Assembly: GCA_946629065.1 (NCBI GenBank) | Contig: CAMOXK010000003.1 | Coordinates: forward strand, 1 to 57,367 | Reading direction: 5' to 3' | Source of the DNA: an uncultured Clostridia bacterium | GTDB taxonomy: Bacteria; Bacillota; Clostridia; Oscillospirales; Oscillospiraceae | Length of the DNA: 57,367 nt | Shown here: positions 91-15,086 of the stretch, piece by piece | Position numbering within the stretch: the stretch's first letter is position 1 | Layout: each line of letters opens with the position of its first letter | Notes under the pieces: generated by a model | Database searches by the model: none | What the model saw: the letters and a program-made list of their open reading frames with translations, nothing else | Told to the model about the DNA's origin: nothing | Program-made: the position numbers and the translations under genes

Positions 91-285
91 TTATTTCTTT
101 TTGCGATACCAGGGGCAGCGGGTGCCGTCCTTGGGCTCGGGCAGCTTCTCGCCCTTGATGGCGGCGATGATGAGCTTGCGGTGGACAAAGACCATGTAGG
201 TCACAAAGCAGCAGAGAGCGGCGAGCAGTGCCCAGAGCAGGAACTTACCCACCTTCATCCAGGCGTTTTTCAGCTTTTCTTTCAT
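91..285 (-). CDS. Small single-pass membrane protein
   Basis: The product is 64 residues with one clear membrane helix (about 15-35, rich in Leu, Ala and Phe) between a Lys-rich start and a basic tail ending in RKKK. The start has a good ribosome binding site (GGAGG, 8 bases upstream) and its own promoter, so this is a real gene although I do not recognise the family. It ends 7 bases before a mobile-element end. The positive termini suggest an N-in or tail-anchored arrangement, but the function is unknown. It may be co-transcribed with the long operon upstream as well as from its own promoter. Confidence 0.7.
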   Translation of the reverse strand: MKEKLKNAWMKVGKFLLWALLAALCCFVTYMVFVHRKLIIAAIKGEKLPEPKDGTRCPWYRKKK

Positions 286-317
286 AGGTCAGTCCTCCAA
301 ATCGTTTTGATAAAACC

Positions 318-346
318 AGTATAGCACAAGGATCGGCGCATTTGAA
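318..346 (-). promoter_or_regulatory. Promoter for the small membrane protein gene
   Basis: On the minus strand, TTCAAA and TATACT are separated by 17 bases and lie about 30 bases upstream of the GGAGG site of the 64-residue protein. Four of six -35 bases and five of six -10 bases match the sigma-A consensus. Confidence 0.6.
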
Positions 347-379
347 GAGGGAAGAGGGAGTTTTTGAAAGATCCTCCCA

Positions 380-1045
380 TCAGCGGCAGGCTTTGCGCAC
401 ATGTCCGTCCGGGTCTTCCCGCAGGGCAGAGGGATCCAGCCCCCGCCTTTTGGCAAGCTGCGCGGCTTTGGTCCGCTGCTTGGCGCAGCGGGAACCTGCC
501 AGCAGCGCATAGAGCTCCGTAGGGCGGGAATCCTCGTAATGGTCCAGAAGGATATCCGCTACGATTTCCTGCCGCAGGCAGGTCCCTTCCCGATGAAACA
601 AGTCCCTCAGATACCGATAGTTCTCCTCGGTGGCCTCCAGGCGAAACAGCAGCTTTCCCTGGTCGTGAAGCAGCGCGTAGTGCTCCGCAACTGCCGCTTT
701 CATGGCCTGTTCCGGGCAGGGGAGCCTGTGTTCCTCAATGATCTCCAGCGCAGCCAACACAAAGGAAGGATCGTCGGACTGAAGCTGCTGCACAGCGTAG
801 GATGAAAGATCTGCGGCGTAAGGGCTGCGGAAGATCACCCGGAAAGCATACAGGCGGCGCCAGCGGTCCGACACATCCAGCTGTGCAGCGAGGAGACGGA
901 AGGCTCCCTCGTCAGTCCGCTGGGACAGGGCTTCACAGGCGAGACAATAACGCTGCATTTGCTTGTCCCGCAGCATCTCTTCCAGCTCCGGCAAAGGCGC
1001 GTCATAGGGGATCGGCTCCCCATTTAGCAGTTGTTTTTTCTCCAT
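380..1045 (-). CDS. HEAT-like repeat protein (hypothetical)
   Basis: The product is a 221-residue soluble, mostly helical protein with no signal peptide. Alternating hydrophobic helices (for example around residues 25-110, with segments such as YAVQQLQSDDPSFVLAALEI) look like HEAT or Armadillo-type repeats. It lies 7 bases after the stop of the next HEAT-like gene and has AGGAG before the ATG, so it is probably translated with it. It is the distal large gene of the operon that carries the DUF4132 giant protein. The specific function is unknown; a protein-binding scaffold is the most that can be inferred. Confidence 0.7.
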   Translation of the reverse strand: MEKKQLLNGEPIPYDAPLPELEEMLRDKQMQRYCLACEALSQRTDEGAFRLLAAQLDVSDRWRRLYAFRVIFRSPYAADLSSYAVQQLQSDDPSFVLAALEIIEEHRLPCPEQAMKAAVAEHYALLHDQGKLLFRLEATEENYRYLRDLFHREGTCLRQEIVADILLDHYEDSRPTELYALLAGSRCAKQRTKAAQLAKRRGLDPSALREDPDGHVRKACR

Positions 1046-1052
1046 ACTGCTC

Positions 1053-2339
1053 CTATGGCAAAACGAATTGCCAGCCCCGGCTCTGCCGCAGGTCCTCCAT
1101 CACGTCCTCCAAAATGGCCCGCTCCACCGGATCTCCCTGCTGCCACTGGGCATAGAAGCGATCCTTGACCTCCGATTCCACAAGCGGCGCCTTTTTGTGC
1201 AGCACCCCCATGACACCCAGAGCCTGGAGCACCGTCATCCGCACGGAGGATTTCGGGTGTTGGGAAAGCTCCATCAAAAGCCCATAGGCATAGCGCAGCT
1301 CCGGGGGATTTTCCGCGTCCCGACCGAGACTGTAGATCACAGCCTCCAGTTCCCTGTAGAAGGCCTCGTCCTCATCGACCCCTACCCGGGCGAGCAGCCG
1401 GTCGATCTTTTCGGTATCAAAGCCGTTGACCGGAGCGGTGTCCTTCTTTTCCGGGGCCTCGTCCTTGATATAGACCTGCCCCACGCCCACGTTACCAAAC
1501 CTGATCTTGCTCACCCTACAGTACAGACTCATCCCCTTCGGCGCCTCCCCGGCCAGGAGCTGCCTCAAATCCAGGTTTTCCGCCGGGGCAAAAGGCTTTT
1601 GAAAGTCCTTTTTGTATCCCTCCAAAAGCAGCCTCCAGCCGTTCCAGCCGGCAGGATAGAGCTTGGCGTAGAGCCCCTCGGGAACCGGAACGGTCCCAAT
1701 CTTCCGGAAGGCAGAAGGGGCAAGAAATTCCTTCGCATAGAAGGAACTGATCAGGCCCAGCTTTTCCGGGAGCGGGTCCAGGGCAGAGAGCTCCTCCCGC
1801 GTAAAGCTTCTTTGCAGAACACAGCAGAAAAGCTGATCCCCAAAGTCGTAAGGCCAGCCGATGCGGTCCAGCACGATCAGCACCCGCTGTCCCTCCGGCG
1901 CCTTGTAGGCCAGCACATCTCCCGGATCCAGGTCCGGCAGCTCCCGCTCCTTGGGCGCGGGGTGCCGCTTCCGGGGCTTTTCTTTGGGCTTTTGCAGCGA
2001 ATCCCAGAACGCGGCCAGCTTCTTTTTCCTCTCGGCAAGGTCCCGCTCATTGGCGCCCAGCTCCCGGTAGAAATCCAGGTTCGACCCACTCTCGATGATG
2101 CTGCGCACCCGTTCCAGGATCTCCGGTGACTGCTCGCAGCAGATCCATCCCGCCTTGGCCAGAGCGAAGTATACATCGTGGAGGATGGGATCCTCCAGAT
2201 CGAATTCCCGGGAGTAGTCGGAAAGGATAGCTTCCCGGATGGCGGAGACCGCCGCTCCTTCGTCGTAGCGCTCCATGAAGTCCTCATAGACCTGGCAATA
2301 ATCGTCGCTTTGGGTGAGCCCCATGCCCCAGCAGCCCAT
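1053..2339 (-). CDS. Hypothetical protein, MGCWGMG-type N terminus plus HEAT-like C terminus
   Basis: The product has 428 residues. It begins MGCWGMGLTQSDDYC, an N-terminal pattern reminiscent of DUF4259-like proteins (MGxWGxG followed by an acidic helix); this link is by eye only. The middle contains a charged Lys/Arg/Pro linker near residue 120 and a globular domain around 140-270. The last 100 residues look like HEAT repeats (SSVRMTVLQALGVMG). AAGGAGG precedes the ATG. It sits 12 bases after the DUF4132 gene and so belongs to the same transcript. No enzymatic motif is visible. An immunity-type or scaffold role would fit the context but is not shown. Confidence 0.7.
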   Translation of the reverse strand: MGCWGMGLTQSDDYCQVYEDFMERYDEGAAVSAIREAILSDYSREFDLEDPILHDVYFALAKAGWICCEQSPEILERVRSIIESGSNLDFYRELGANERDLAERKKKLAAFWDSLQKPKEKPRKRHPAPKERELPDLDPGDVLAYKAPEGQRVLIVLDRIGWPYDFGDQLFCCVLQRSFTREELSALDPLPEKLGLISSFYAKEFLAPSAFRKIGTVPVPEGLYAKLYPAGWNGWRLLLEGYKKDFQKPFAPAENLDLRQLLAGEAPKGMSLYCRVSKIRFGNVGVGQVYIKDEAPEKKDTAPVNGFDTEKIDRLLARVGVDEDEAFYRELEAVIYSLGRDAENPPELRYAYGLLMELSQHPKSSVRMTVLQALGVMGVLHKKAPLVESEVKDRFYAQWQQGDPVERAILEDVMEDLRQSRGWQFVLP

Positions 2340-2351
2340 ACGGATCCCTCC

Positions 2352-5300
2352 TTATACTTGACTCAAAATGCCCGGGTCCTTGATTTTGGTATCTTCCGCC
2401 AGCAGCAGGATCTTGGAAAGGATCTCCGCGGTCTTGGGGTCGTCGTCAGCGAAGGGCAGGAAGATGCGGCCCCGTGCCTGGGAGTGGACCGGCAGAATGA
2501 CCACACTGCCCTTGCCCTGGGCGTGGACCACGCCGGAGCCCATGTGCACCGACCAGGAGGCCAGCTTTCCCTGGATCCGGGCGTGAGAGCCCACAAAGCT
2601 CACGTTGGAGACGTGCAGCAGGCGCAGCAGCTCCTCCGCCAGGGCCAGGCGCAGCTCCACGGTGGAGTGACTGGCCTCGGGATCCACGCCGCCCACGTAG
2701 GCCACGCTCACCACCAGATCCAGATCCCGCATGGTCTCGGAAAACAGGATGGGCGGAATCTCCTCCAGAGCCACGTGCTCTCCGGTTTCGCGGCTGAAAA
2801 ACTCGACCGTCTCCAACGTCGGCGCCTCGATATCCGCCGGACTGAACCAGTCCGCCAGGGCAAACATCCGCACCACCAGATCTTCCTTGTAAAAGACCTT
2901 CTGCAGCCCTTCCTCGTAGTCCACGGTCCAGCCCCGGCCTTTCAACAGCGCCAGGGTGCGGCGAGGCTGCACCTGGTAGCCCGCGTAGCGGCGGGACACC
3001 GTGCGCTCCTGCCGCTCGTCCTCGGTAAGGGGGTAATACTCCCGAAAGACCTGCTTGAAGGGCTGCACGATCTTTTGGTCGTAGAGAAGGTGCATCCAGT
3101 CCGCCCAGATCCCGGCGCTTTTCAGGTCGTGGGGATGGGCCGGACGGAGTCTTTCGCCGCAGGGGGAGGAGAGGGCGCTGACATCCTGCAGCAGGAGGCC
3201 CTGCTCACCGGAGACCGGGAAGCCGATCCGCCCCTCGCTGTACCAGAGCAGCTTTTCCACCATGGGGGCGAGGACGGGGCTCCGCAGCAGATTTTGAAGC
3301 TCCTCTGCGAGAAACTCGGTCTGCTCCGTCATGGCCCGTTCCAGACTCTCCCGGGCCCGGCGTTTTTGCTCCTTGAGCTCCTTCGCGCTTTCCTTTCGCT
3401 CCAAATAGATTTCGCTCTTTGCCAGAGCTTTGGGCAGCGTCTTGAGCGCCTTTCCGCCTTTTTCAACGGCAACAGAGGCATCGCCCTCGTCATCGATCTT
3501 CAAGGAAACAGTATAGCCGTCGACATCCACCGGTTCCATCAACGGCCGGAGCTCCTCGGTTTTCGCCGTCTCCATCTGCCAGGTGAGCCGGTCCACATCG
3601 CCATAGCCCGTGGTGATGGCCAGGTTCTCCAAGGCAACGGAAGCGGCCTTTTTCTCGCTCTCCCGGCGCTGTGCGCCAAACTGCCTGCTCTCCTTCAAGA
3701 ACTGTTGGATGAACTCATAGCGGCGCAGGGCCTCCCGGGTGTCGCCCGGGTCCATGGGCAGCAGCGGATAGCAGCGCAGCTTTTCCTGGTTGCGCTTTTC
3801 CCGGATCTCCTGCTGCAGGGTCTCCTTGTCCAATCTTCCCAACACGGCGTCGCTGTAGAGCTGGGAGCGGCGGTGCAGGCTGGAGCCGGTGGTGATATAT
3901 TTGGCGGATTTGTAAAGGGTCTGGAAGCGCATCTCGCCCAGTTTCCCATAGGCGTCCAGAAACCAGTGCTTGTCAAAGGCCCCGTCGTTGAAGCGCTGGG
4001 GGGAAATGGGGGAGTAAAACGCCACCTCCGTCTCCTTCTCGGCGGAGAAGTTTTCGTTGATATGGGCGTGGAAGAACCACACCGCGCTTTTGAGCCCCGG
4101 CCAGTTCAGCACCTGCTCGGCAAGGCCCGCCCACTGGGGGGCGTACATCACCGCCTCGGCCAGGCGCTTGTCGCTGATGTCGGTGGCCTTCAAAAGCTCC
4201 CGCAGAAGCTCCGGCGTGTCGTCCTTCGCCGGATAGCAGCGCTTGAGCAGGCGGCTCAGCACCGAGCGCTTATCCGTGGCCCAGGAGTATTCATAGCCCC
4301 GGTAGAAATTGTCCTTGCCCAGGGCGGCCAGCAGGCGGCAGAAGTGCCCGGCTCCCTCCACGCGCAGCAGATCGATGCAGTGCGGGGTCAGCTCCGTGGG
4401 CAGCTCGCCCCGCTTTTCCTCCACGGAGACGATCCGGTCAAGCACCGGGCGGGCCAGCTCCATGGCCTGGGGGAAGCGGGCGTGAAACTGCCGCCCCGGA
4501 TAGCCGCGGGGATCGCTGAGGACCGTCATCTTGTGCCGCAGATCGCGGGTCGGGTCCAGCAGCCATTCGATCAGCACGTCCTGCCCGATGAGACCCAGGG
4601 AATGGGCACGGAAGAGATCCTCAACGGAAAGCGCATAGCTTACAAAGGCTCCGCCAAGCTGCTCATAGCGGTATTCCAGGGGGAACCACAGAGCAAAATC
4701 CGCATCCGAGAGGGAAAGAAAGTAGATCAGCCCCCGCCAGAGGGCAAGATACCGGTGATTGATGGCGGTCCGGGGCGAATTGATGCTGTGCAGATAGACC
4801 ATGAGGTCGGGCGGCTCCTTGCCCTTGCGCAGCACAGTGGATTCGCCCAGGCGCTGCTCCCCAATGAGCTGTATCGTGCTGCGATAGAGCTTCAGGGCAA
4901 GGGAGAAGACCGTATGGACGTCAAACTCTCTCGGCAGGGCCCGCAGGATCCCCTGCAGCGTAGACTTCCGCTCCGTCCTGACGTCGTTCCAGTAGTCGGG
5001 GACCAGCTGCTTGGCTTGGAGGGGCACAAACCAGGGGGCGATCGTGCTGTGCTCCTGATAGTCATTCACATAAAAGGGCCTGCAGAGGGCATAGAGGGCC
5101 AGGGCCTTGCCGGGATCCTTCCCATAGTCACCCAGGGCCTCCTGAAATTCCTCGTAAAAGGGCAGCAGGCGCAGGCTTGCCCCCTCCTGGCGGAGGTCAT
5201 GGAAGCCGCAGCCCGCGGGCAGAGGCATCCAGTAGTAGTCCGCCAGATCTCCGAACAGGCGCTTTTGCCGCTCGCCGGAGGAGAGCTCGAAGCAGTATTC

Positions 5301-7388
5301 GTAATCCGCATGGCGGACAAACACGGCGTTCAGCCGCTCCAGGATCCGCTCCAGCTCCTTCTTCGAGGGAAAGAGACTGCGGATCTCCTGCTCGCTCATA
5401 CAGTCTCCGCCCGTCTTGCCCAGAAGCTTCTGCAGCAGGCCGGGCTTTTCCGCCGCCAGACGCTCGTCCAGCTCCTGCCGATAGGCGCGAACTTTGGCGG
5501 GGTCATAGAGACCGAAGCCGTTTTCCCGGGTATAGACTTCTTCTGTCTTCCGGGGAAGAAGCTGATCCAGCAAAAAAGTCGTCTGGGTGGAGAGCTTCCG
5601 CTGTCGAAGGGCGTCAAGCTCACTGCGGTACCGCTCCGGCAGGGCGGGATCGGCGTCCTTCTGCTCCAGCAGCAGCTCGATGGCGGCCTGATTCCGGGTT
5701 TCCTCGCTGCTCTGCAGCATCTCGGAGATCAGGGGCAGCAACAGCTCCCGCGGCTGGCCGCGGAGAGCGGAAAGGATCGCGCCACGCAGGCTGCTGCTTT
5801 TGCTGCGCAGGGCGTCCGCCAGCTCCCGCAGCTCCTCCGCTGACAAGGCGGTGGCGGACAGGGCTTTCACGGCCTGTTCCTTCACCTCCACGCTCCGGTC
5901 CGAGAGCAGGGAGCGCAGCACCTCCCGGTCCGCGAGGCTGGAGGCGGGGTGGAGAAAAGAATAGATCAGGGTCAGCTTTTGATCCGCGCTCATCCAGGGA
6001 CTGAGCTCCGGCAGCTGCCGGGTCAGCGTGTCGTCCATCTCGTAAGCGGCGAGACTCATCATGCAGGAAATGACAGGCTCATTGGAGAGCGCAGCCGTGT
6101 TCCCCGGAAAAGGCAAATCGGAAAAGCGGCGCTTTTTGTTGCCGATGAAGGCGGCAAGCTCCCTGAGGGCGGCAAAGACCCGGCGCCGCTCCTCCCGGTC
6201 CCGGGGGAGAGCGGGATTGGGAAAGCTCTTGCCTTTGTACTGCTCATATGAGATCCGGACCAGTTGATGTGACCGGACCAGGCAGCCGGTGAGCCAGGCC
6301 AGGACCTCCTCGTTCCGCTCATCCAGATGGCGGCAGGCCAGGGCCATGCCATAGGCGGCCATGTCCGTACTGCGCACAAAGTACCAGCCCAAGACCCGGC
6401 GGCTGGGCTTTTCGTCCCGCAGCAGGGTTTCCACCTGAGCCTTGGTTTCGGTGAGCTCGCAGCAGGCCTGGCCCCAGAGGGCAAAGTACACCTGCAACAG
6501 ATCCTCACTCTGCAGCAATTCCTTCCGCTTTTCCGCATCCGTCAGCGCGGCATAGGCCAGTTCTCCGCTGCGGCGGGCCCGGGCGGGGCGGGCGTCGTCC
6601 GTTGGCAGCCCCGTCCACACGTCCAGGGCGCGGATGGCGCTGCTGTAGCGGAAGAGCTCATGATCCAGGCAACATTTCAGGATCCGGGCGAGGGTTTGTG
6701 CACTGCCCTTGTCCGCGCTCTCCAGAATCTGCTGGCGCAGCCCCTCCTGGAGTCCGGCCGTCAGCAGCAGCTGCATCAGATCCGCCAGCAGGTCCTCCCG
6801 GCCGCTGATGATGATGGCTTCGATGCCCTTGCGGCTGAGCTTGATCTGACTGCTGTCGCCGAAGATGGCCTCCCGCAGGGCGGCGGAAAGCCGCTCGTCC
6901 CCCTGCCGCAGGGCCAGGGCCAGCTGGTATTCGTAGCCGATCAGGCTCTCCTGCCCGGTGAAGAGCTTGTCGTAGAGGCTGCCGGAGAAATAGTAGCCAT
7001 GCACCAGCCCCGCCAGCAGCTTGATCCACTCCGGCAGATAGACGTGGAGGCCTGCGCTGTGATAGCTGCGCCGCAGGTAGGAGGCGGAAAACTGCCCCTC
7101 CGCCCGCAGCATCAGCAGGGCGGGGATCCGGGATTCATAGTCTTTGTCGGTCAGCTCCCGCAGGAGCCGGGAAAGCTCCGGGGTGTAAAACTGTTCCAGG
7201 CTTTGGAAGTCCTCGGGCTTTTGCAGCAGGGGGCGGGCCAGCGCATCATACAGGGTGTTCCAGGCGGCCCCGTCATAGCTGTGCTCGCCCAGATCGAAGA
7301 GCGCCTGGGCGGTTTTGCCCAGCTTTTGTGCCTTTTTCCGGGCGGTGCTCCAGCCCCGGACGTCAAAATCCACTTGCTTATGCTCCAT
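2352..7388 (-). CDS. Giant DUF5724/DUF4132-type protein
   Basis: The product has 1678 residues, is cytosolic, and has no signal peptide or membrane span. The C-terminal ~250 residues (GWTVDYEEGL..., then a core with ...VSNVSFVGSHARIQGK... and a short strand-rich end) match my recollection of the DUF4132 domain, also found in E. coli YehI and MolR relatives. The long N-terminal part is an alpha-helical solenoid with HEAT-like pairs around residues 470-600 and looks like DUF5724. The family function is unknown. The gene starts 1 base after the stop of the 139-residue gene, and GGGAGG lies upstream of the ATG. It is the largest gene of the window and the probable core of its operon. No frameshift was seen. 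Confidence 0.85.
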   Translation of the reverse strand: MEHKQVDFDVRGWSTARKKAQKLGKTAQALFDLGEHSYDGAAWNTLYDALARPLLQKPEDFQSLEQFYTPELSRLLRELTDKDYESRIPALLMLRAEGQFSASYLRRSYHSAGLHVYLPEWIKLLAGLVHGYYFSGSLYDKLFTGQESLIGYEYQLALALRQGDERLSAALREAIFGDSSQIKLSRKGIEAIIISGREDLLADLMQLLLTAGLQEGLRQQILESADKGSAQTLARILKCCLDHELFRYSSAIRALDVWTGLPTDDARPARARRSGELAYAALTDAEKRKELLQSEDLLQVYFALWGQACCELTETKAQVETLLRDEKPSRRVLGWYFVRSTDMAAYGMALACRHLDERNEEVLAWLTGCLVRSHQLVRISYEQYKGKSFPNPALPRDREERRRVFAALRELAAFIGNKKRRFSDLPFPGNTAALSNEPVISCMMSLAAYEMDDTLTRQLPELSPWMSADQKLTLIYSFLHPASSLADREVLRSLLSDRSVEVKEQAVKALSATALSAEELRELADALRSKSSSLRGAILSALRGQPRELLLPLISEMLQSSEETRNQAAIELLLEQKDADPALPERYRSELDALRQRKLSTQTTFLLDQLLPRKTEEVYTRENGFGLYDPAKVRAYRQELDERLAAEKPGLLQKLLGKTGGDCMSEQEIRSLFPSKKELERILERLNAVFVRHADYEYCFELSSGERQKRLFGDLADYYWMPLPAGCGFHDLRQEGASLRLLPFYEEFQEALGDYGKDPGKALALYALCRPFYVNDYQEHSTIAPWFVPLQAKQLVPDYWNDVRTERKSTLQGILRALPREFDVHTVFSLALKLYRSTIQLIGEQRLGESTVLRKGKEPPDLMVYLHSINSPRTAINHRYLALWRGLIYFLSLSDADFALWFPLEYRYEQLGGAFVSYALSVEDLFRAHSLGLIGQDVLIEWLLDPTRDLRHKMTVLSDPRGYPGRQFHARFPQAMELARPVLDRIVSVEEKRGELPTELTPHCIDLLRVEGAGHFCRLLAALGKDNFYRGYEYSWATDKRSVLSRLLKRCYPAKDDTPELLRELLKATDISDKRLAEAVMYAPQWAGLAEQVLNWPGLKSAVWFFHAHINENFSAEKETEVAFYSPISPQRFNDGAFDKHWFLDAYGKLGEMRFQTLYKSAKYITTGSSLHRRSQLYSDAVLGRLDKETLQQEIREKRNQEKLRCYPLLPMDPGDTREALRRYEFIQQFLKESRQFGAQRRESEKKAASVALENLAITTGYGDVDRLTWQMETAKTEELRPLMEPVDVDGYTVSLKIDDEGDASVAVEKGGKALKTLPKALAKSEIYLERKESAKELKEQKRRARESLERAMTEQTEFLAEELQNLLRSPVLAPMVEKLLWYSEGRIGFPVSGEQGLLLQDVSALSSPCGERLRPAHPHDLKSAGIWADWMHLLYDQKIVQPFKQVFREYYPLTEDERQERTVSRRYAGYQVQPRRTLALLKGRGWTVDYEEGLQKVFYKEDLVVRMFALADWFSPADIEAPTLETVEFFSRETGEHVALEEIPPILFSETMRDLDLVVSVAYVGGVDPEASHSTVELRLALAEELLRLLHVSNVSFVGSHARIQGKLASWSVHMGSGVVHAQGKGSVVILPVHSQARGRIFLPFADDDPKTAEILSKILLLAEDTKIKDPGILSQV

Positions 7389-7389
7389 G

Positions 7390-7809
7390 TCACCACATCC
7401 TCCCGGCCAAAAAGGTCAGACGCACAAAGGTAAACACCGCGCCCTCACGCACGGCCAGCGGCGCGTCCAGCTCCGTGAGCTCTGTCTCGTCCATCAGCAC
7501 GCGCACGAGCCCGTCCTGAAAGGCCCGGACGGCAGTCTCCGCCGCTTTGGCCCTGTCCGCCTTCCGGTCGGACCAAAGTCGGCCGAAGCCCACCTTGCCG
7601 GAGGCAGCCCGGGCTTCGATCTCCTCCGCCGAGAGAAAGGAGAGCAGCGGCGCGTCCGTGCCCTTGCCGTTATAGCGCTCGACCTCAGCCTCCACAAAGG
7701 CGATGAGCAGCTGGCGCAGACTGCCGATGCCCTCCGGCAGCTCATAGGGCTTCGGGGGCAGCACATCCCTGCGCTTGCCCAGCGCCTTGATTTTCACATA
7801 GACCTGCAA
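7390..7809 (-). CDS. Conserved small protein coupled to the DUF4132 gene
   Basis: The product has 139 residues, soluble. It starts QVYVKIKALGKR and ends FTFVRLTFLAGRMW, a strand-helix-strand layout with a hydrophobic C-terminal end. The start is TTG at 7809, chosen because AAAGGAG lies 9 bases upstream and no ATG is available. Its stop is 1 base from the ATG of the DUF4132 giant, so the two are likely translated in a fixed ratio and may form a complex. I recall similar small proteins beside DUF4132 genes in clostridia but cannot name the family. Confidence 0.75.
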   Translation of the reverse strand: MQVYVKIKALGKRRDVLPPKPYELPEGIGSLRQLLIAFVEAEVERYNGKGTDAPLLSFLSAEEIEARAASGKVGFGRLWSDRKADRAKAAETAVRAFQDGLVRVLMDETELTELDAPLAVREGAVFTFVRLTFLAGRMW

Positions 7810-7850
7810 ACGACTCAGCTCCTTTGTTCGATCCGCATTCGATTGCTTTT

Positions 7851-8159
7851 TCAGATATAGTCACAGTCTTGCCTGTACCCGTATACCGTGACGATGTTGT
7901 CCTGGATCTCGCCCGGAACATGGATCCGTTTCAGCGCATCCAGCACGAAGGGCCTGTTTTCATCTGAAAGCTGTATCTGCAGCCACTCAAGATCTTTCCA
8001 CCACGGAAACTGTGAGCCGAAGAGCTCCCACTCATTCGACCAACAGGAGATGTCCCCGCTGCGTTCTTTCGTTCGATAGAAAACGGCAAGACTTTTGTCG
8101 CCTTTCCCGTCATTTTCATAAAACGCGCGAAAGAGTTCATTCCATTTCGTGTTGTTCAT
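7851..8159 (-). CDS. DUF6678 family protein
   Basis: The product has 102 residues. It begins NNTKWNELFRAFY and has a central SCWSNEWELFGSQFPWW segment and an end region VLDALKRIHVPGEIQDNIVTVYGYR. This layout, with tryptophan-rich strands and the IHVPG motif, fits my recollection of DUF6678, a small uncharacterised family often carried among immunity-type genes. A ribosome binding site (AAAGGAG) precedes the ATG by 8 bases after GGAG. It lies in the middle of the DUF4132 operon with 39-41 base gaps on both sides. Confidence 0.7.
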   Translation of the reverse strand: MNNTKWNELFRAFYENDGKGDKSLAVFYRTKERSGDISCWSNEWELFGSQFPWWKDLEWLQIQLSDENRPFVLDALKRIHVPGEIQDNIVTVYGYRQDCDYI

Positions 8160-8198
8160 CCCTTAGGCTCCTTTTCCAGCGACATATGTTGTCTGTCC

Positions 8199-9152
8199 TC
8201 AGATCCCCAGGAAATAGAATCCGTTGTATTTGGCCGCGGCCTTTTCCAGCCAGGGGATCAGGATATCGCAATCTTCTGGCTTGGTTGCCTTGATTTGCTC
8301 CAGCATTTGTGACGTGCGATCTTTGGTGTAGTAGTTGATCCCGTAATAGCAGAAGGTGCTGCTGCCGTCGGGCGATTCCGGGTGTTCCAGGAAAGGAAGA
8401 TAGGCCTCCATCAGCCGCTCCTGATCGTCGATATACACGATAAGGGAATCCGGCATCCAATGCTGCTGCGGGTGATCCAGGAGTTTTTTGAGGGGAGCTT
8501 CGGTTTTGCAGTACTGAAACTCAAACCAGGCTGTGCCCCACCGGACCCGACCGGGAAGAAAAAGCGCGTTGGGACGGGCATTGGCAAGACCTTCCCCAGG
8601 CTCGCGGCGGATCTTCCGCCTTCTCCTTTTGAAAAAGAAGGACCGGATCCGCGCGGGAAGCGTGTTTTGCTGCAGCTTTCGGCGCTGCGCATCCAGGGGG
8701 TCGAATACCTCTCCGGATGAAAGCAGCTTTCGGAAGCTTTCCAGAAAGGCCCCGCGGGGAAGAAGGCGAGCTTCGATATCGTCATACCAGTCGCTCATCA
8801 GATACAGGGCGTTCCAGGGATCCTCCGTCCACCAGCCGGAGAGCCAGGCCACCCCCATTTTGCGTGTGAGCTGCTCCAGAGCCTCCGGGCTTTGCTCATA
8901 GCGAGCCCGGAAATCCTCCGCCACCAGGGAAAACACAGCATCCTTGTCGATCTGCTCCTTCGGAACAGAGAGAACAAACTCGTTCAGAATATGGATCTGC
9001 TCGTTCCGATCTCCGCCGCAGGTGGAGAGGGCCAGTGTCAGCTCGCTCAGCGGGTCTTCCTGCTCCAGAAGCTCGTCCAGCTCCGCATCAAAGCGCTCGG
9101 TCAGCCCGACCTCCAGCATCAGCTTGTGATAATAGGCTCGCTCAACCGTCAT
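8199..9152 (-). CDS. Hypothetical two-domain protein with Arg-rich linker
   Basis: The product has 317 residues. The N-terminal ~160 residues are helical and acidic (LTERFDAELDELLEQEDPLSE). A strongly basic stretch, SFFFKRRRRKIRREPGEG, joins it to a mixed domain (FEFQYCKTEAPLKKLL..., ending YNGFYFLGI). The start was set at ATG 9152, 9 bases after AAGGAG; an ATG at 9161 touches that site and is less likely. The gene overlaps the end of the upstream gene by 11 bases. The family is not recognised. The basic linker could bind nucleic acid or simply be a hinge. The motif FQYCKT recurs in the LRR protein of the same operon. Confidence 0.65.
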   Translation of the reverse strand: MTVERAYYHKLMLEVGLTERFDAELDELLEQEDPLSELTLALSTCGGDRNEQIHILNEFVLSVPKEQIDKDAVFSLVAEDFRARYEQSPEALEQLTRKMGVAWLSGWWTEDPWNALYLMSDWYDDIEARLLPRGAFLESFRKLLSSGEVFDPLDAQRRKLQQNTLPARIRSFFFKRRRRKIRREPGEGLANARPNALFLPGRVRWGTAWFEFQYCKTEAPLKKLLDHPQQHWMPDSLIVYIDDQERLMEAYLPFLEHPESPDGSSTFCYYGINYYTKDRTSQMLEQIKATKPEDCDILIPWLEKAAAKYNGFYFLGI

Positions 9153-9675
9153 CGTCCGCATCTCCTTGCATGAACGCTAAATATTCCGCATATTCCACTG
9201 CTTCCATGATCCTGTCGGCGGCCTGCTCACCTTCACGGCTGAAGAAGTGGATCTCTGCCCCCTCATCAAAACCGTACAGATGAAGAATAGCCCCGTTGCG
9301 GGTGCTGCCGCGCTTGATCTCCCGAATACCGGCCAGAGGCGTCGAGTATTCCAGCATGGGCTTTTTGTCCAGACTCAATATGGTAAGACTGTCCTCAAAC
9401 AGATATAGTCGCGCCCCGCGTGTTTCCGCGCCTAAATAAACTACGCCTTCACACTTGAAAACTGGCGCTTGGGTAAAGCGTGCTTCTGCCTGCCGATAGC
9501 GCTTCTCCTCAAAATGTAAAATGATTTGCACGATGGCAGAGAGCAGGATCGTAACAATGAGCCCGGCAGGGATGGCCAGCAATTCGTCCTCGGGATACGT
9601 AAAGTGCAGAAAAAACCAGGCAACCAGGCCGCAGAACGCGCCGAATATCAAGCTGAATACTTTAAAATCCATCAT
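9142..9675 (-). CDS. Membrane protein with cytosolic PH/GRAM-like domain
   Basis: The product has 177 residues counted from ATG 9675, which follows the stop of the upstream gene by 1 base. The longer open frame is not needed. Two hydrophobic helices (about 6-26 and 34-54) form a hairpin. They are followed by a strand-rich domain (VFKCEGVVYLG...RLYLFEDSLTILS...EIKRGSTRNGAILHLYG) that looks like a small PH or GRAM-type fold, and an acidic tail. It is probably an inner-membrane protein with its globular part in the cytosol. It is translationally coupled on both sides within the DUF4132 operon. Function unknown. Confidence 0.65.
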   Translation of the reverse strand: MMDFKVFSLIFGAFCGLVAWFFLHFTYPEDELLAIPAGLIVTILLSAIVQIILHFEEKRYRQAEARFTQAPVFKCEGVVYLGAETRGARLYLFEDSLTILSLDKKPMLEYSTPLAGIREIKRGSTRNGAILHLYGFDEGAEIHFFSREGEQAADRIMEAVEYAEYLAFMQGDADDDG

Positions 9676-9676
9676 T

Positions 9677-10105
9677 TTACTGAAAATACAGCCGGTAGTC
9701 ACCGTGCGCTTTGCTTTCTATATCTTCTTTCGAGGTAAAGGCAACCGATATTTTGCGGTTTTTCAAAACTGCTTTCAACTCTTCCGCCTCCTTTTGATTG
9801 CCGCGGATCGTGATTTTTCCAAAGGATAGCGGTTTAGGGACTTCAAATGCTTGCACAGGGTATCCATGATCTTTCAGGTGCTGGACGGTGGCGCGCCTGA
9901 TTCTTTCACACAGGCCGGATGCCTGCGCTTCTGCCAGATCGGAATCCCGGTCAAACAAATACCAAATGACAAGATACTGAGGCGCGATCTCGATTGCTCC
10001 ACAGAAAAAGTGCTCAACGATTTTCGGTAAGGATGTCGAATACTCGCTTACTGTTTCCTCGATGGACTTTTTGATTTTCTTTTCCAGTCTTGCTTTGAAC
10101 ATCAT
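9677..10105 (-). CDS. Hypothetical protein, immunity-like
   Basis: The product has 142 residues, soluble. An N-terminal basic amphipathic helix (KARLEKKIKKSIEETVSEY) is followed by an alpha/beta domain with APQYLVIWYLFDRDSDL and a final half around VPKPLSFGKITIRGNQKEAEELKAVL. No catalytic motif is evident. The start codon directly follows the TAA of the DUF3885 gene, which indicates coupling. Codon use is more AT-rich than in the housekeeping genes, as for several operon neighbours, suggesting accessory origin. The family is not recognised. Confidence 0.65.
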   Translation of the reverse strand: MMFKARLEKKIKKSIEETVSEYSTSLPKIVEHFFCGAIEIAPQYLVIWYLFDRDSDLAEAQASGLCERIRRATVQHLKDHGYPVQAFEVPKPLSFGKITIRGNQKEAEELKAVLKNRKISVAFTSKEDIESKAHGDYRLYFQ

Positions 10106-10789
10106 TTATCCCTGCTTTCTGTTCTGAAGCCGTCTTTCCATTTCTGCCAAATCATAGGCAAGAAAAAAAGGACTAAGAGCGGGATAAAAGGACTTCATTT
10201 TCTCGTAAGTCATAAACACGATGTCGCAGCCCCTGTCATCATAGACAGATAAAATACATTCATTTTCAAACGATATAAGGCTGATCTCCGGGCTGTCACC
10301 ATCGCTGAGCTGCTTTTCGATCAGCTCACGGTCGTCAAAACCGATTCCGTCGGAATAACAGACGATCCGATGCCGACGCCGCAAATCGTAATCCGGATCG
10401 CCCGGCTCATCGTAGGTTTTGAGATCCTTGACCGCCGCGTGGCGGTATTTCATCATGCACTCCGAAAGAAAGCGGAGGGAATCGGATTCCGCCTGAATTC
10501 TGCGGTCAACGGTCTCTGCAGCGATTTCTTCGCTTTCCCAGGACTTTCCTTCGGCATCTCCCGAGTCAGACCAATCGTTGATCCAGTAATTGAAAATGAT
10601 CGCATCGGCACCATGGGGAAACAGAATATCATAAATCGCATTGGCCCGCTGCCGTGCCAGGCCCATGTATTCTTCCGTGGTCTCTCCGATCCCCAGCTCA
10701 CAGCGCAGGGCATAGGGATTGTTATAAAAATAGGGCTGGAGATAATCAAAATCCCGGCGCAGGATCTGTTCTTCCACTTTGCTGCTCAT
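10106..10789 (-). CDS. DUF3885 family protein
   Basis: The product has 227 residues. It shows the DUF3885 hallmarks I recall: an early FYNNPYALRCELGIGE strand region, a run of RANAIYDILFP, and a late VYDDRGCDIVFMTYEKMKSFYPAL block just before the C-terminal helix. Members are small soluble proteins of unknown function, frequent in Firmicutes and often near polymorphic-toxin immunity genes. Its ATG overlaps the stop of the LRR gene as ATGA, so the two are coupled. No signal peptide or membrane span. Confidence 0.8.
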   Translation of the reverse strand: MSSKVEEQILRRDFDYLQPYFYNNPYALRCELGIGETTEEYMGLARQRANAIYDILFPHGADAIIFNYWINDWSDSGDAEGKSWESEEIAAETVDRRIQAESDSLRFLSECMMKYRHAAVKDLKTYDEPGDPDYDLRRRHRIVCYSDGIGFDDRELIEKQLSDGDSPEISLISFENECILSVYDDRGCDIVFMTYEKMKSFYPALSPFFLAYDLAEMERRLQNRKQG

Positions 10790-11601
10790 ACTTCGTCTCC
10801 TGGTACTTTGTCAGATTGATAGGTGATTTGAGAAACATTCGCGGCAAAGTCGGATCCCCAAGCTGCGGGAGCCTGGCTTCTTCCGCATATTGCCAGATGA
10901 AGTCTGGTACAATTGCAAAATGCGGAATACCCAATCTGTTGGACAGACGCAGGGACATAGAGACGTTCCAGACTGTCACAGCCCCAAAAAGCCTCATGAC
11001 CGATTTCCAACAAGCCTGACGGAAGATTGATTTCTTTCAGTTCCGGCAAATCAAAAAAGCTTCGGGGTCCAATTCGTTTTAAACTGCTTGGAAGAAGCAC
11101 CCTTTGCATTCCTGTGGTGGAGAGAAGCGGATTGATATCTCGATACTGGATCTCTTCTGTTCCTTCCGGAACGACGAGCCTGCCATTTTTCAAACGATAT
11201 CCTGCTTGCTTGTATTCACCGACGGGAATCCCAACGCCCGTTTCCAATGCGTTTTTAAGCTCGGAGGAGAATTCCTCCAGATGTTCTGCGTACTGTTCCG
11301 GGACCGGTATTCCATGATGAATATACGCTTGCTCGGAGCAATAGCTTTCCGTTATTGTTATTCTATATTCTTTTCGCTGCTCCAAATACAGAATATTCAG
11401 ACTGATTGAGTCATTATAGAAGCTGAAAGCAAAATAGGGGCCGTAAAACAGAAGCTTTCCATTTTCATCAACATAGTTTCCCAGATCAGTTTTGCAGTAT
11501 TGAAATCCGTAAACATCAACTAAAAATCCAAATTGCTGCATGAGAAGCTCTTCTGTTTCGTCCATGCGCGAGAATAGTTGGTCAAAGAATGACTTCAACA
11601 T
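10786..11601 (-). CDS. Protein with C-terminal BspA-type leucine-rich repeats
   Basis: The product has 271 residues. The first ~150 form a novel mixed domain (DVYGFQYCKTDLGNYVDENGK...). Residues about 155-245 carry three or four LRR_5 (BspA-type) units such as LLPSSLKRIGPRSFFDLPELKEINLP and LLEIGHEAFWGCDSLERLYVP, usually used for protein recognition. There is no signal peptide, so unlike many BspA proteins it should stay in the cytosol. AAGGAGG lies 7 bases before the ATG. It is the second gene of the DUF4132 operon. Confidence 0.75.
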   Translation of the reverse strand: MLKSFFDQLFSRMDETEELLMQQFGFLVDVYGFQYCKTDLGNYVDENGKLLFYGPYFAFSFYNDSISLNILYLEQRKEYRITITESYCSEQAYIHHGIPVPEQYAEHLEEFSSELKNALETGVGIPVGEYKQAGYRLKNGRLVVPEGTEEIQYRDINPLLSTTGMQRVLLPSSLKRIGPRSFFDLPELKEINLPSGLLEIGHEAFWGCDSLERLYVPASVQQIGYSAFCNCTRLHLAICGRSQAPAAWGSDFAANVSQITYQSDKVPGDEV

Positions 11602-11620
11602 TTCTGCACCTCCTTCACGG

Positions 11621-13021
11621 TTACAGCTTCTCGACGAATTTCCGAATCTCCAGATAGCAGTCCCGGCGGCATTCCTCCCGCAGCTCCTGCGTCAGCAGAC
11701 CGCGGGGCTCCATCAGTTCCAGCAGATAGAGCCGGCAGCAGGAGCAGTAGTTCTCCCGCAGCATATAGGGCAGCAGCGCCGCCGAGAGCTCCCGGTCCGC
11801 CGCCGGATCCCGGTGGATCAGCTCCCGCACCACACTGAAAACGCCGTGCCAGGCGCCGCGGTTTTCATCGAGAGAAACGGCCTTCACCAGCGGGATCAGG
11901 CGTTCACCGTCGCCGGGGCGGAAATTGTTGAGCAGCATATAGAGCGCGTCCACGTCCTTCCACCGGCGCTTGAGGCGGGAGAGGGCATAGTCCCGCACCT
12001 GCGGGGCCCGCAGTTCCACCAGCACCCGCAGCGCCTCCTCCCGGAGAGGGCGGTTTTTGCTCTCCGCGTCCAAAAGCAGGCGAGAGATCCCGGCGTCGTC
12101 AAAGGTGGAAATGCAGGCTTCCGTTCGGAAGAGGCGCAGGATCGCATGGCGCAGATCCTCCTTTTCCTCTGCCGCGTAGAGCCGCGCAAGGCTCGTGACC
12201 TCTTCAAGGCCCTGCTGCTCCATACGGCGCAGCAGGAAGAGGGGAAGGTCTTTCCCGGGGACGGCTCCATCCCGGAGCTTGCGATAGAGACTCTGGGCGC
12301 TCTCCGCCTCTGCCTGCTGCCGTGCCTGGGCCTGATAGGCCTCCCGGCTCGCCTGCAGACGGCGGCGGTTTTCCAGATACCGGGCGATATCGGGATCGTC
12401 CCCGGCCTCCCGCAGCAGCTCCCGCACCCGGTCGGCGCCAAGGGTGTCCTCCGCCACAGAGTCAAACCACTCGTCCTCCGCATGTCCGCCCAGATCCGGC
12501 TTTCGCACCAGGATCCTGCCGTAGTCAGCGAGAACGCGCAGATAAAAGGCCTCCCGCTCCGCCTGGGCCTGCAGCGCGTTTGTGAGCAGGGACACGCACA
12601 CACGGCTGAAATTGTCCATTGCGGGCCAGATGCCGGTTCGGGAGGGGCGGCCGCGGCGAATCGCGCCCAGCAGCAGGGCGTAAAGCTCCTCCAGCGTCTC
12701 CCGGGCGGGGGCGTAAGCGTCCCCGGCCATCAGAGCAAGCAGCTCCGCAAAGTGGAAAAAGCGCCAGCCCCGATCCTTGAGATTGCGTTTCGCGCCGGCG
12801 GCGATGAGGGCGTGAAAGTCCGTCCAGTCGTCAAAGAGCCAGAGCATGTCATAGTAGTAGATCGCCCTTGTTCCCTCGCACTGGGCGTCATAGGCCAGAG
12901 CGTGCTGCAGACCCCAGAGCAAGTCCTCCCGGTAGTCCTCCACATTGGCGCAGCGCTCCAGCTCCAGTGGACAGCTGCCAAGGCCCCGGCGCAGATCGTG
13001 GCGAAATTGCGTTTTCGTCAT
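11621..13021 (-). CDS. HEAT-like repeat protein, first gene of the operon
   Basis: The product has 466 residues from ATG 13021, which lies 6 bases after AAAGGA; an ATG two codons earlier touches that site. The protein is almost wholly helical. Residues 1-200 are rich in aromatic and acidic residues (YYYDMLWLFDDWTDFHAL). The middle has an Ala/Gln/Arg-rich helix (SREAYQAQARQQAEAESAQ), and the last 200 residues are HEAT-like (LREEALRVLVELRAPQVRDYALSRL). It is led by a well-formed promoter and probably sets transcription of the whole 12-13 kb operon. Function unknown; a scaffold partner of the DUF4132 giant is a guess. Confidence 0.7.
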   Translation of the reverse strand: MTKTQFRHDLRRGLGSCPLELERCANVEDYREDLLWGLQHALAYDAQCEGTRAIYYYDMLWLFDDWTDFHALIAAGAKRNLKDRGWRFFHFAELLALMAGDAYAPARETLEELYALLLGAIRRGRPSRTGIWPAMDNFSRVCVSLLTNALQAQAEREAFYLRVLADYGRILVRKPDLGGHAEDEWFDSVAEDTLGADRVRELLREAGDDPDIARYLENRRRLQASREAYQAQARQQAEAESAQSLYRKLRDGAVPGKDLPLFLLRRMEQQGLEEVTSLARLYAAEEKEDLRHAILRLFRTEACISTFDDAGISRLLLDAESKNRPLREEALRVLVELRAPQVRDYALSRLKRRWKDVDALYMLLNNFRPGDGERLIPLVKAVSLDENRGAWHGVFSVVRELIHRDPAADRELSAALLPYMLRENYCSCCRLYLLELMEPRGLLTQELREECRRDCYLEIRKFVEKL

Positions 13022-13069
13022 GTTCATTCCTTTCCCGGCGGAAACATGATGGGATTCTCTTTCTTTTTC

Positions 13070-13098
13070 AGTATAACATGAGCGCTTTTGTCCGTAAA
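13070..13098 (-). promoter_or_regulatory. Promoter of the DUF4132 operon
   Basis: On the minus strand, TTTACG and TATACT are separated by 17 bases and end about 50 bases before the first gene's ATG. It lies between that gene and an upstream terminator, so it is well placed to drive the whole operon. Confidence 0.65.
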
Positions 13099-13671: not shown

Positions 13672-14949
13672 TCACAAAATATGGTCGGTGATGCAGTCGT
13701 ACCAGTGGACGTAAGTCTCCCCGTTTACGGTGATGCGCTCGTTTTCCGGCAGCAGCTCGCTCCAGGGGCGGCCGTAGCGCGCGATGGCCCAGTCGTCCCG
13801 GTTGAAGCGGCGCCAGAGGACGGTGCGGCCCTCCTTGTCCAGAAACTGCTCGGTGGCCACGCCGCCGTCATAGGTCTCGATATCCATGACGCAGATGGTG
13901 TCATAGCGCTTGCCGCCGATCGCAACGGTGTAACGGCCCACCACGTCCAGCAGGAAGGGCTTGTCCGCGGCGGTCACCGCGCTGCCCTCCCGGCGGATAT
14001 CACCCCGGGGCGCGATCTGGACGGCATTGCCGCAGTTATCCTCCCCAAAGCCCCAGTTATCCAGAAAATCGCCGCCGTCCAGGAAGGTGTAGAGCTTACG
14101 GACACCGTCCTCCACATGGCTCTCGGCAAGGATCCGGCAGTGGGTCTCGGTGAGCTGGGCCACGAAGCGGCGCTCGGACTTGTCCGTGTCTCCGATGCGG
14201 TTGCATTCCATGGGCTCATACTCCACGGCGCGGATCTCCACCCCCTGGATGCCGTGGACCTCCGCCCTGCCAAGGACCTCCATGTCGCACTGCTCGGTGC
14301 GTTTCCGCTCCGGGAAATCGTACATGGCCCAGGAGAGCTTTTCGCCCGGCTTTGGCACGATGAACCAGCCCATCATCTCCTCCCAGCGGACCGGGAAGGG
14401 CGCAAGTTCGGATTGTATGATCGTGTATTCCGGCAGATAGTCCGGCATTTTTTTCATGTTCGTTTCTCCTTTCTCCCGATAGGGCCAGCGCTCCCGAAAG
14501 CGGGCGCGGGCATTGTACAGACGGCTTTTCACCGTGCCCAGGGGGATCTGCAGCCGCGCTGCGATCTCCGCCTGGGGCAGCTCCCGGAAGTAGGTGAGGT
14601 ACAGGATCTGCTGATCCGTGTCGCCCAGCTGCTCCAGGGTGTCCCGCACCGCGCTTTTTACGGTGCGGCCTCGGATGCCAACGGCCAGCACCGCCTCGTT
14701 CAGCTCCTCCAGGGGAAGTTCCATGCGCCTGGCCTGTTCCCGGAAATAGTCATTGCACTTATTCCGGGCGATGCCCAGCAGCCAGGGCTTGAAGGAACCC
14801 TGGTCCCGCAGACTCCCGAAGTGACGCCAGGCGGCAAGGCAGGTCTCCTGCAGTACGTCCTCCGCGTCCCGGGCGCTGCCGATGCGGAACTTCACAAAGC
14901 GCTCCAGCGCGGGCAGCTCCGCCTGCAGCAGTTCTTCAAATTCCGGCAC
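13672..14949 (-). CDS. ECF-type sigma-70 factor with C-terminal extension
   Basis: The product has 425 residues from GTG 14949, 8 bases after AGGAGG; earlier GTG/ATG codons touch that site. Residues 1-70 form sigma region 2 (AEDVLQETCLAAWRHFGS). Residues about 95-150 form region 4 (LGDTDQQILYLTYFRELPQAEIAARLQIPLGTVKSRLYNARARF). ECF factors usually stop near 180 residues; here about 260 more residues follow (from KKMPDYLPEYTI), a strand-rich domain of a type I recall fused to such factors in Firmicutes. No anti-sigma gene adjoins, so the extension may sense a ligand and control the factor in cis. It lies alone between tRNA-Leu and the repeat cluster. Confidence 0.85.
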   Translation of the reverse strand: MPEFEELLQAELPALERFVKFRIGSARDAEDVLQETCLAAWRHFGSLRDQGSFKPWLLGIARNKCNDYFREQARRMELPLEELNEAVLAVGIRGRTVKSAVRDTLEQLGDTDQQILYLTYFRELPQAEIAARLQIPLGTVKSRLYNARARFRERWPYREKGETNMKKMPDYLPEYTIIQSELAPFPVRWEEMMGWFIVPKPGEKLSWAMYDFPERKRTEQCDMEVLGRAEVHGIQGVEIRAVEYEPMECNRIGDTDKSERRFVAQLTETHCRILAESHVEDGVRKLYTFLDGGDFLDNWGFGEDNCGNAVQIAPRGDIRREGSAVTAADKPFLLDVVGRYTVAIGGKRYDTICVMDIETYDGGVATEQFLDKEGRTVLWRRFNRDDWAIARYGRPWSELLPENERITVNGETYVHWYDCITDHIL

Positions 14950-15086
14950 GGACATCACCTCCTGTCATAAAACCGGTTTCACTTACTTAGTCGCGGAAAA
15001 CAGCGAAAAGGTTCATCGGGGGAAAATTTTTGCGGCGATTTTGGGAAGAGGAGCATCGGCAGCCCGGGAAGAGATAAACCGCGAAT

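Follow-up and report, generated by a model that had tools for sequence, protein, structure and literature searches.

The carrier proteins MoaD and ThiS function together with partner proteins, MoaE and ThiG. Here we compare these and other described systems with two adjacent genes, H and I, encoding a small protein of 139 amino acids (aa) and a giant DUF4132 protein of 1678 aa, which lie within a string of twelve genes (A to L) in a 57,367-nucleotide stretch of DNA from an uncultured Clostridia bacterium (Oscillospiraceae; contig CAMOXK010000003.1; hereafter the window). We propose that H-I is an undescribed, stress-linked ubiquitin-like two-gene system. The putative ubiquitin-like nature of H is the main new point and was missed by an earlier, model-made reading of the DNA (hereafter the sequence-only reading).

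For the homologous pair of Deinococcus radiodurans, the accessible text of PMC8533742 lists DRA0165, putatively in an operon with DRA0166, with a DdrO motif, and reports that mitomycin C raises tagged DRA0166 in the wild type and not in an irrE mutant, and that moeA and moeB are not differentially expressed upon DdrO depletion. The accessible text of PMC9650054 describes DRA0165 as a stress-related small protein exclusive to Deinococcus, whose deletion leads to higher antioxidant activity and which binds the thioredoxin DRA0164. DNA-damage-responsive regulators are reported beside Bub, Bil and CBASS (cyclic oligonucleotide-based anti-phage signalling system) operons in the accessible text of PMC13373217. 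Heterogeneous polyimmunity loci, as described in the accessible text of PMC3482391, are same-strand genes with short gaps, without a toxin gene inside and with a content that varies among close relatives, recombinase genes lying close by in several cases; leucine-rich repeat (LRR) and HEAT proteins count among the immunity types listed there. The sequence-only reading had called the function of the locus undescribed, and the open-access literature indeed gave none for DUF4132 giants. Neither a ubiquitin-like partner of DUF4132 nor the name DUF5724 was found in that open-access text, and a term search did not find DRA0165 in the accessible part of a 2006 survey of prokaryotic beta-grasp proteins.

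A two-gene module of a small protein and a DUF4132 giant

The two genes of the module are as follows.

7390..7809, minus strand: gene H, 139 aa, TTG start, C-terminal tail LAGRMW; predicted beta-grasp protein with a helical insertion
2352..7388, minus strand: gene I, 1678 aa, giant protein with DUF5724, DUF4132 and DUF7737

The giant with its coupled 139-residue partner was correctly recognised by the sequence-only reading: the domains of I are, in this order, DUF5724 (E-value 6e-286), DUF4132 (6e-42) and DUF7737 (3e-32), and H is separated from I by one base. The DUF5724 part is mostly helical with weak HEAT matches, and the C-terminal part shows strong conservation across phyla. A predicted model of the last 709 residues of I (predicted local distance difference test, pLDDT, 86) had no structure match with an E-value of 0.001 or lower in the PDB or BFVD, and therefore no enzyme class can be named for I; by sequence, nothing in the PDB fell under an E-value of 0.3 for H or I.

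To determine how constantly the two genes occur together, the genome_contigs collection was scanned for relatives of I (at least 548 found), of which the best 80 were used together with two plasmid loci. H was located directly before I in 78 of these 82 loci, and the four loci without H (L038, L039, L045, L098) are contigs that start inside I. According to the record titles the paired loci span Firmicutes, Bacteroidota, one deltaproteobacterium, one coriobacterium, Planctomycetes and Deinococcus. Among 391 genomes drawn from the class, H was present in six (the window's genome included, and G458 with only a partial H close to a contig end), all six of which have I. The three genomes with I only hold a frame with stops at a contig end (G332), a 775-aa frame (G106) and a match below the cut-off (G287). 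I directly follows H in every one of the five plasmid records that encode H, four of them from Deinococcus and one from Bacteroides. Neighbouring genes were grouped into families by BLAST clustering and their recurrence was counted over group labels typed from the record titles: I recurred under 35 labels, H under 27, and the next two families, by eye ABC-transporter and sensor proteins, under 11 and 10. Homologs of A-G and J-L (E-value of 0.01 or lower) were absent from the other H-I loci among the best 15 matches listed, except in the same-genus genome G043, and in G012 a distant homolog of A and the H-I pair sit on different contigs. H-I is thus an independent two-gene module that has no further constant partner and is found across several phyla. 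The suggested co-occurrence of the 139-residue gene with the giant is borne out, and because the pair is nearly obligate across phyla, a two-part machine is supported. The HEAT-like genes said to accompany the giant do not follow it; A, J and K lie near it solely in G043.

DUF5724 was found in 3 of 99 relatives and in 9 of the 391 class genomes (8 above the cut-off). A tree built on the C-terminal region groups the window with L038 and then with further Clostridia, among them Eisenbergiella. A phage or virus origin was rejected: the giant had no match in phages, and none of the 95 viral_contigs stretches that fitted the search pattern encoded a relative of it.

The Planctomycete loci show with which part of the giant H is associated. 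H precedes a same-strand DUF4132 protein in 14 of the 15 regions fetched (19 places were listed), and 12 of the 14 partners match only the C-terminal part of the giant profile, from position 1155 or mostly from about 1301-1330. The partner is a full-length giant in L230 and L231; in L225 the frame is broken, and the recognised part starts 907 bases further along, after an intervening related frame. Outside the fetched set, the giant stands behind H in L198 and L216. H is therefore associated with the DUF4132-DUF7737 end of I. Escherichia coli YehI shares the DUF4132 domain with the giant (BLASTP E-value 2e-4), and H is absent from the 22 kb read of the yeh region, as it is within flanks of up to 1.5 kb from six loci in G052 and G067 with DUF4132 and without DUF5724.

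Three further observations were made at such loci. In L202 (G819) the DUF4132 frame precedes H rather than following it. L229 (G595, Planctomycete phylum) encodes an H-like protein ending in VAGG at about 1810-2421 on the plus strand, with no DUF4132 gene found in the 10 kb read; this protein may belong to another ubiquitin-like system. The same-genus genome G052 contains five DUF4132 matches without DUF5724 (L129, L131-L134), distributed 2+2+1 over its contigs.

Tail, predicted fold and regulation of H

The C-terminal tail is the most direct evidence that H may be ubiquitin-like. H of D. radiodurans, D. sp. D7000, D. psychrotolerans and D. ficus ends in LAGG right at the stop codon (4 of 4). 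Among 294 genomes from the phylum of a Planctomycetaceae genome H was present in 17, and the 18 complete proteins (one further partial match was left out) end in GG (14), GA (2), SG (1) or GRSW (1), as retrieved with a profile in which 4 of 8 rows were Deinococcus sequences ending in LAGG and which may favour such tails. A GG end is found in 12 of the 161 open reading frames (ORFs) of the Planctomycete regions; nine of these are H, and the other ORFs account for 3 of 151. Of the 76 complete genome_contigs proteins, 70 end in L[A/S/T]G plus three residues and 50 in LAG[R/G/S]xW. In a set of 56 H proteins G136 is invariant (56 of 56).

The predicted structure of H runs strand, strand, long helix, two more helices and then strands. 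In a Foldseek search the top match was mouse 2900073H19RIK (1wgk), which we take to be Urm1, followed by Pyrococcus MoaD; MoaD, ubiquitin and SUMO chains appeared further down, interspersed with a small number of other proteins, transcobalamin and PI3K among them. ThiS was the Pfam family most often matched by members of the A3 set of H proteins (6 of 56, best E-value 0.065). Profile comparison with hhalign was initially controlled with five unrelated clusters, and because this was too small a control, column shuffles were performed (150 per test, eight tests). The hhalign score was attained by 1, 0, 2 and 1 of 150 shuffles for the A3-based profiles and by 9, 0, 1 and 0 of 150 for the A5 and combined profiles. 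From the predicted model and these comparisons we infer that H is a ubiquitin-like beta-grasp protein of the MoaD/Urm1 type.

Upstream of H a DdrO operator-like site was identified in all four Deinococcus species (1, 1, 1 and 2 mismatches; for D7000 the H start was taken longer than annotated), and equally good sites were found in 0 of 386, 195, 183 and 305 control windows. The motif scan backs the accessible text of PMC8533742 over that of PMC9650054. LexA-like sites with up to two mismatches were located before H in 19 of 76 loci as compared with 36 of 1003 controls, and a GTACATATGTAC-like site is common to 8 of those 19. Palindrome-like sites of the GTACATATGTAC type precede H in the Paenibacillus loci L070, L074, L080, L081, L082, L088, L090 and L100.

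Several results weigh against a stress-linked ubiquitin-like H. The window's own H ends in LAGRMW without diglycine and a GG end occurs in 0 of the 76 complete genome_contigs proteins, to which the composition of the Planctomycetes search profile has to be added. The H model is moderate (pLDDT 71, with low values in the tail and the insertion), and no Foldseek match reached an E-value of 0.001 (best 0.044). ThiS did not match the window's H itself or any of 17 A5 members; since the ThiS model matches nothing at all in the window's genome, H there is invisible to it. The hhalign probabilities against ThiS and MoaD were only 1-14%, one of the eight shuffle tests was as high as 9 of 150, and the initial run gave 18.9 for an unrelated cluster as compared with 20.1 for ThiS and 17.5 for MoaD. 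No E1, E2 or JAB was recognised beside H-I among neighbours that were BLAST-clustered and not scanned with domain profiles. With regard to regulation, the accessible text of PMC9650054 states that the motif is absent upstream of DRA0165, and LexA control of H-I in Bacillales was counted as unproven because the GTACATATGTAC-like site differs from the lexA boxes of the two genomes examined and the same sites recur among related species.

A string of cassettes differing at one site within the genus

H and I are part of a minus-strand string of 12 same-strand ORFs running from 12997 to 91. The other features of the string are listed below.

13070..13098, minus strand: promoter-like site ahead of gene A (9/12 match)
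11621..12997, minus strand: gene A, 458 aa, without family; heads the string
9677..11601, minus strand: variable block B-C-D, consisting of gene B (271 aa, LRR_5, 2e-15), gene C (227 aa, DUF3885, 1e-20) and gene D (142 aa)
9142..9702, minus strand: gene E, 186 aa, N terminus hydrophobic by eye, without family
8199..9161, minus strand: gene F, 320 aa, without family
7851..8159, minus strand: gene G, 102 aa, DUF6678 (3e-11)
1053..2339, minus strand: gene J, 428 aa, weak HEAT
380..1045, minus strand: gene K, 221 aa, weak HEAT
91..285, minus strand: gene L, 64 aa, hydrophobic by eye
2354..8192, no strand assigned: G-H-I cassette, exactly missing from the string of genome G490

The spacers from A to L are +19, -4, 0, -26, -20, +39, +41, +1, +12, +7 and +94 bases, in line with the tight packing of about eleven genes described in the sequence-only reading, whose DUF6678, DUF3885 and LRR assignments were also recovered. 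Its three HEAT-like proteins were retained in part (J and K match below threshold, E-value 0.02-0.03; A has no HEAT match), and the PH-like nature of E found no family match. A single promoter had been assumed, and a promoter-like site does lie ahead of A. On both strands of the first 16 kb there are 13 such sites as compared with 3.9 expected; four of the 13 fall on the minus strand within the interval from 13000 to 300, and one promoter for the string is therefore not established. Only 90 bases separate the 3' end of the string from the end of the contig, and the operon may therefore continue. No toxin gene was found among the 11 string proteins scanned with Pfam (all except L), and an NCBIfam scan of ten returned nothing of weight. 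A known defence system was rejected, since PADLOC models gave just two weak matches for proteins A to J (n = 10; E-values 0.017 and 0.019). Directly upstream of the string lies a 428-aa ORF (13672-14958) whose start is sigma-factor-like by eye; its DNA also adjoins the string in G490 and G043.

Within the genus (101 genomes, that of the window included) J was matched in 5 and A in 6 genomes. The G490 string reads A-X-E-F-J-K-L, X being a gene of 126 aa. Its DNA alignment with the window ends at window position 8193 and restarts at 2353, the two aligned blocks sharing three bases in G490, which identifies a clean empty site from which the G-H-I block (about 5.8 kb) is simply absent. Gene X occupies the place of B-C-D in G490 and in G043, which has A-X-E-F-G-H-I on one contig, with F broken into two frames, and I-J-K-L on another. 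J is retained in both genomes. The 13.4 kb read of G049 contain E plus the first two thirds of J, and in the related G015 string A, D, part of C, one F-like and one J-like gene are found in changed order, together with Imm44 (1e-25). In both the window and G043, gene G adjoins H-I; in G490 it is gone together with the pair, and it was not found beside the H-I of G012. The guanine-plus-cytosine content of B-C-D (46.6% as compared with 60.2% for 13101-57367) suggests a recent arrival of this block.

The operon is thus a string of cassettes differing at one site within the genus. Like the polyimmunity loci introduced above, it consists of same-strand genes with small gaps, lacks a toxin gene and varies in content (window, G043, G490, G049 and G015). 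Since the window's own string holds no Imm-named family, its membership among heterogeneous polyimmunity loci is likely and not proven. As to the choice between a machine and a polyimmunity island that the sequence-only reading had offered, the operon as a whole behaves as variable cargo, and H with the giant as a nearly obligate pair. The data do not support a large eleven-gene scaffold machine, as G-H-I and B-C-D come and go at the same place within the genus; a conserved eleven-gene machine was rejected on the basis of the G490 empty site and the absent linkage elsewhere.

Putative mechanism, alternatives and known systems

We estimate a probability of about 0.55 that H-I is a ubiquitin-like stress-response module in which the tail of H is docked in the C-terminal part of I and the helical part of I acts on a target. 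The flexible C-terminal LxG(G) tail of H would dock into the DUF4132-DUF7737 end of I, for which the docking of MoaD into MoaE serves as a model. Recruiting or clamping the target would fall to the long helical stretch of I, a part missing from the short partners found in Planctomycetes. The pair would thereby form a stress-response device, probably switched on by DNA damage in Deinococcus. H proteins with a naked diglycine could be activated by the cell's shared E1-like enzyme, and those with a masked LAGRxW end would more likely be non-covalent subunits.

It is possible, at a distinctly lower probability, that H and its DUF4132 partner form a new ubiquitin-like system of bacteria. H of Deinococcus and Planctomycetes would then be a genuine diglycine modifier that uses a shared E1, with DUF4132-DUF7737 transferring or accepting it and DUF5724 picking targets after damage; LAGRxW would represent either a pro-form for clipping or a derived form acting non-covalently. 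Were the diglycine in use, bacteria would have a ubiquitin-like pathway outside E1-E2-JAB operons. DUF4132 giants are widespread, with no function found in the literature, and a ubiquitin-like partner of one branch would offer a concrete handle in the form of a mutable tail, a pull-down partner and an applicable stress; two phyla have naked diglycine forms, and the Deinococcus pair is under damage control.

We consider it unlikely that H-I is another immunity cassette, with I as a giant toxin-neutralising solenoid and H as its chaperone. The position of the pair within a shuffling string beside DUF6678, DUF3885 and LRR genes, the Imm44 of the related G015 string, the HEAT and LRR types listed in the accessible text of PMC3482391 and the patchy spread (3 of 99 relatives and 9 of the 391 class genomes) would fit such a cassette, whereas the pair has no constant neighbour elsewhere, is under DNA-damage regulation in Deinococcus and has a C-terminal part strongly conserved across phyla, unlike the fast-evolving protein expected for immunity. 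A sulfur carrier of the MoaD/ThiS kind with I as its acceptor enzyme, as brought to mind by the old name MolR of E. coli DUF4132 proteins, appears more doubtful still: although Deinococcus H and most Planctomycetes H have a naked diglycine and DUF4132 is common to I and YehI, the diglycine end is missing from all 76 complete genome_contigs proteins, moeA and moeB were unchanged on DdrO depletion (accessible text of PMC8533742), and the stretches read of the yeh region and of the six DUF4132 loci without DUF5724 show no H. That the whole A-L operon forms one large scaffold machine is very improbable. Its genes share a strand and overlap, but G-H-I and B-C-D are independently present or absent in the same genus, A-G and J-L are without homologs among the best 15 matches listed in the fetched H-I loci except G043, and G012 carries its distant A homolog and H-I on separate contigs; G490 already contradicts such a machine, unless its operon is non-functional.

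The ubiquitin-like stress-response module that we favour resembles several known systems in part. With heterogeneous polyimmunity loci (accessible text of PMC3482391) the string shares tightly packed, unrelated same-strand genes that differ among close relatives and are toxin-free; it differs by lacking an Imm-named family in the window and by holding the H-I module. The E. coli yehI-yehQ region (DUF4132, MoxR ATPase, VWA, SWIM) shares the DUF4132 domain, whereas no H occurs in the 22 kb read, and H-I has no comparably constant neighbours. Bil, Bub and type II CBASS contain a bacterial ubiquitin-like protein, as proposed for H-I, and damage-linked regulators are reported beside Bub, Bil and CBASS operons (accessible text of PMC13373217); beside H-I no E1, E2 or JAB was recognised among neighbours that were BLAST-clustered. 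MoaD, ThiS and Urm1 resemble H in its predicted beta-grasp core and C-terminal strand and in the LxGG end of some H relatives, whereas H has a helical insertion of about 50 residues, the tail LAGRMW in the window and a DUF4132 partner in place of MoaE or ThiG. DRA0165-DRA0166 of the D. radiodurans DdrO regulon is a homologous two-gene operon with the same order and a DUF4132 giant; it differs in that DRA0165 ends in a naked diglycine and the pair stands alone, with a DNA-damage operator upstream.

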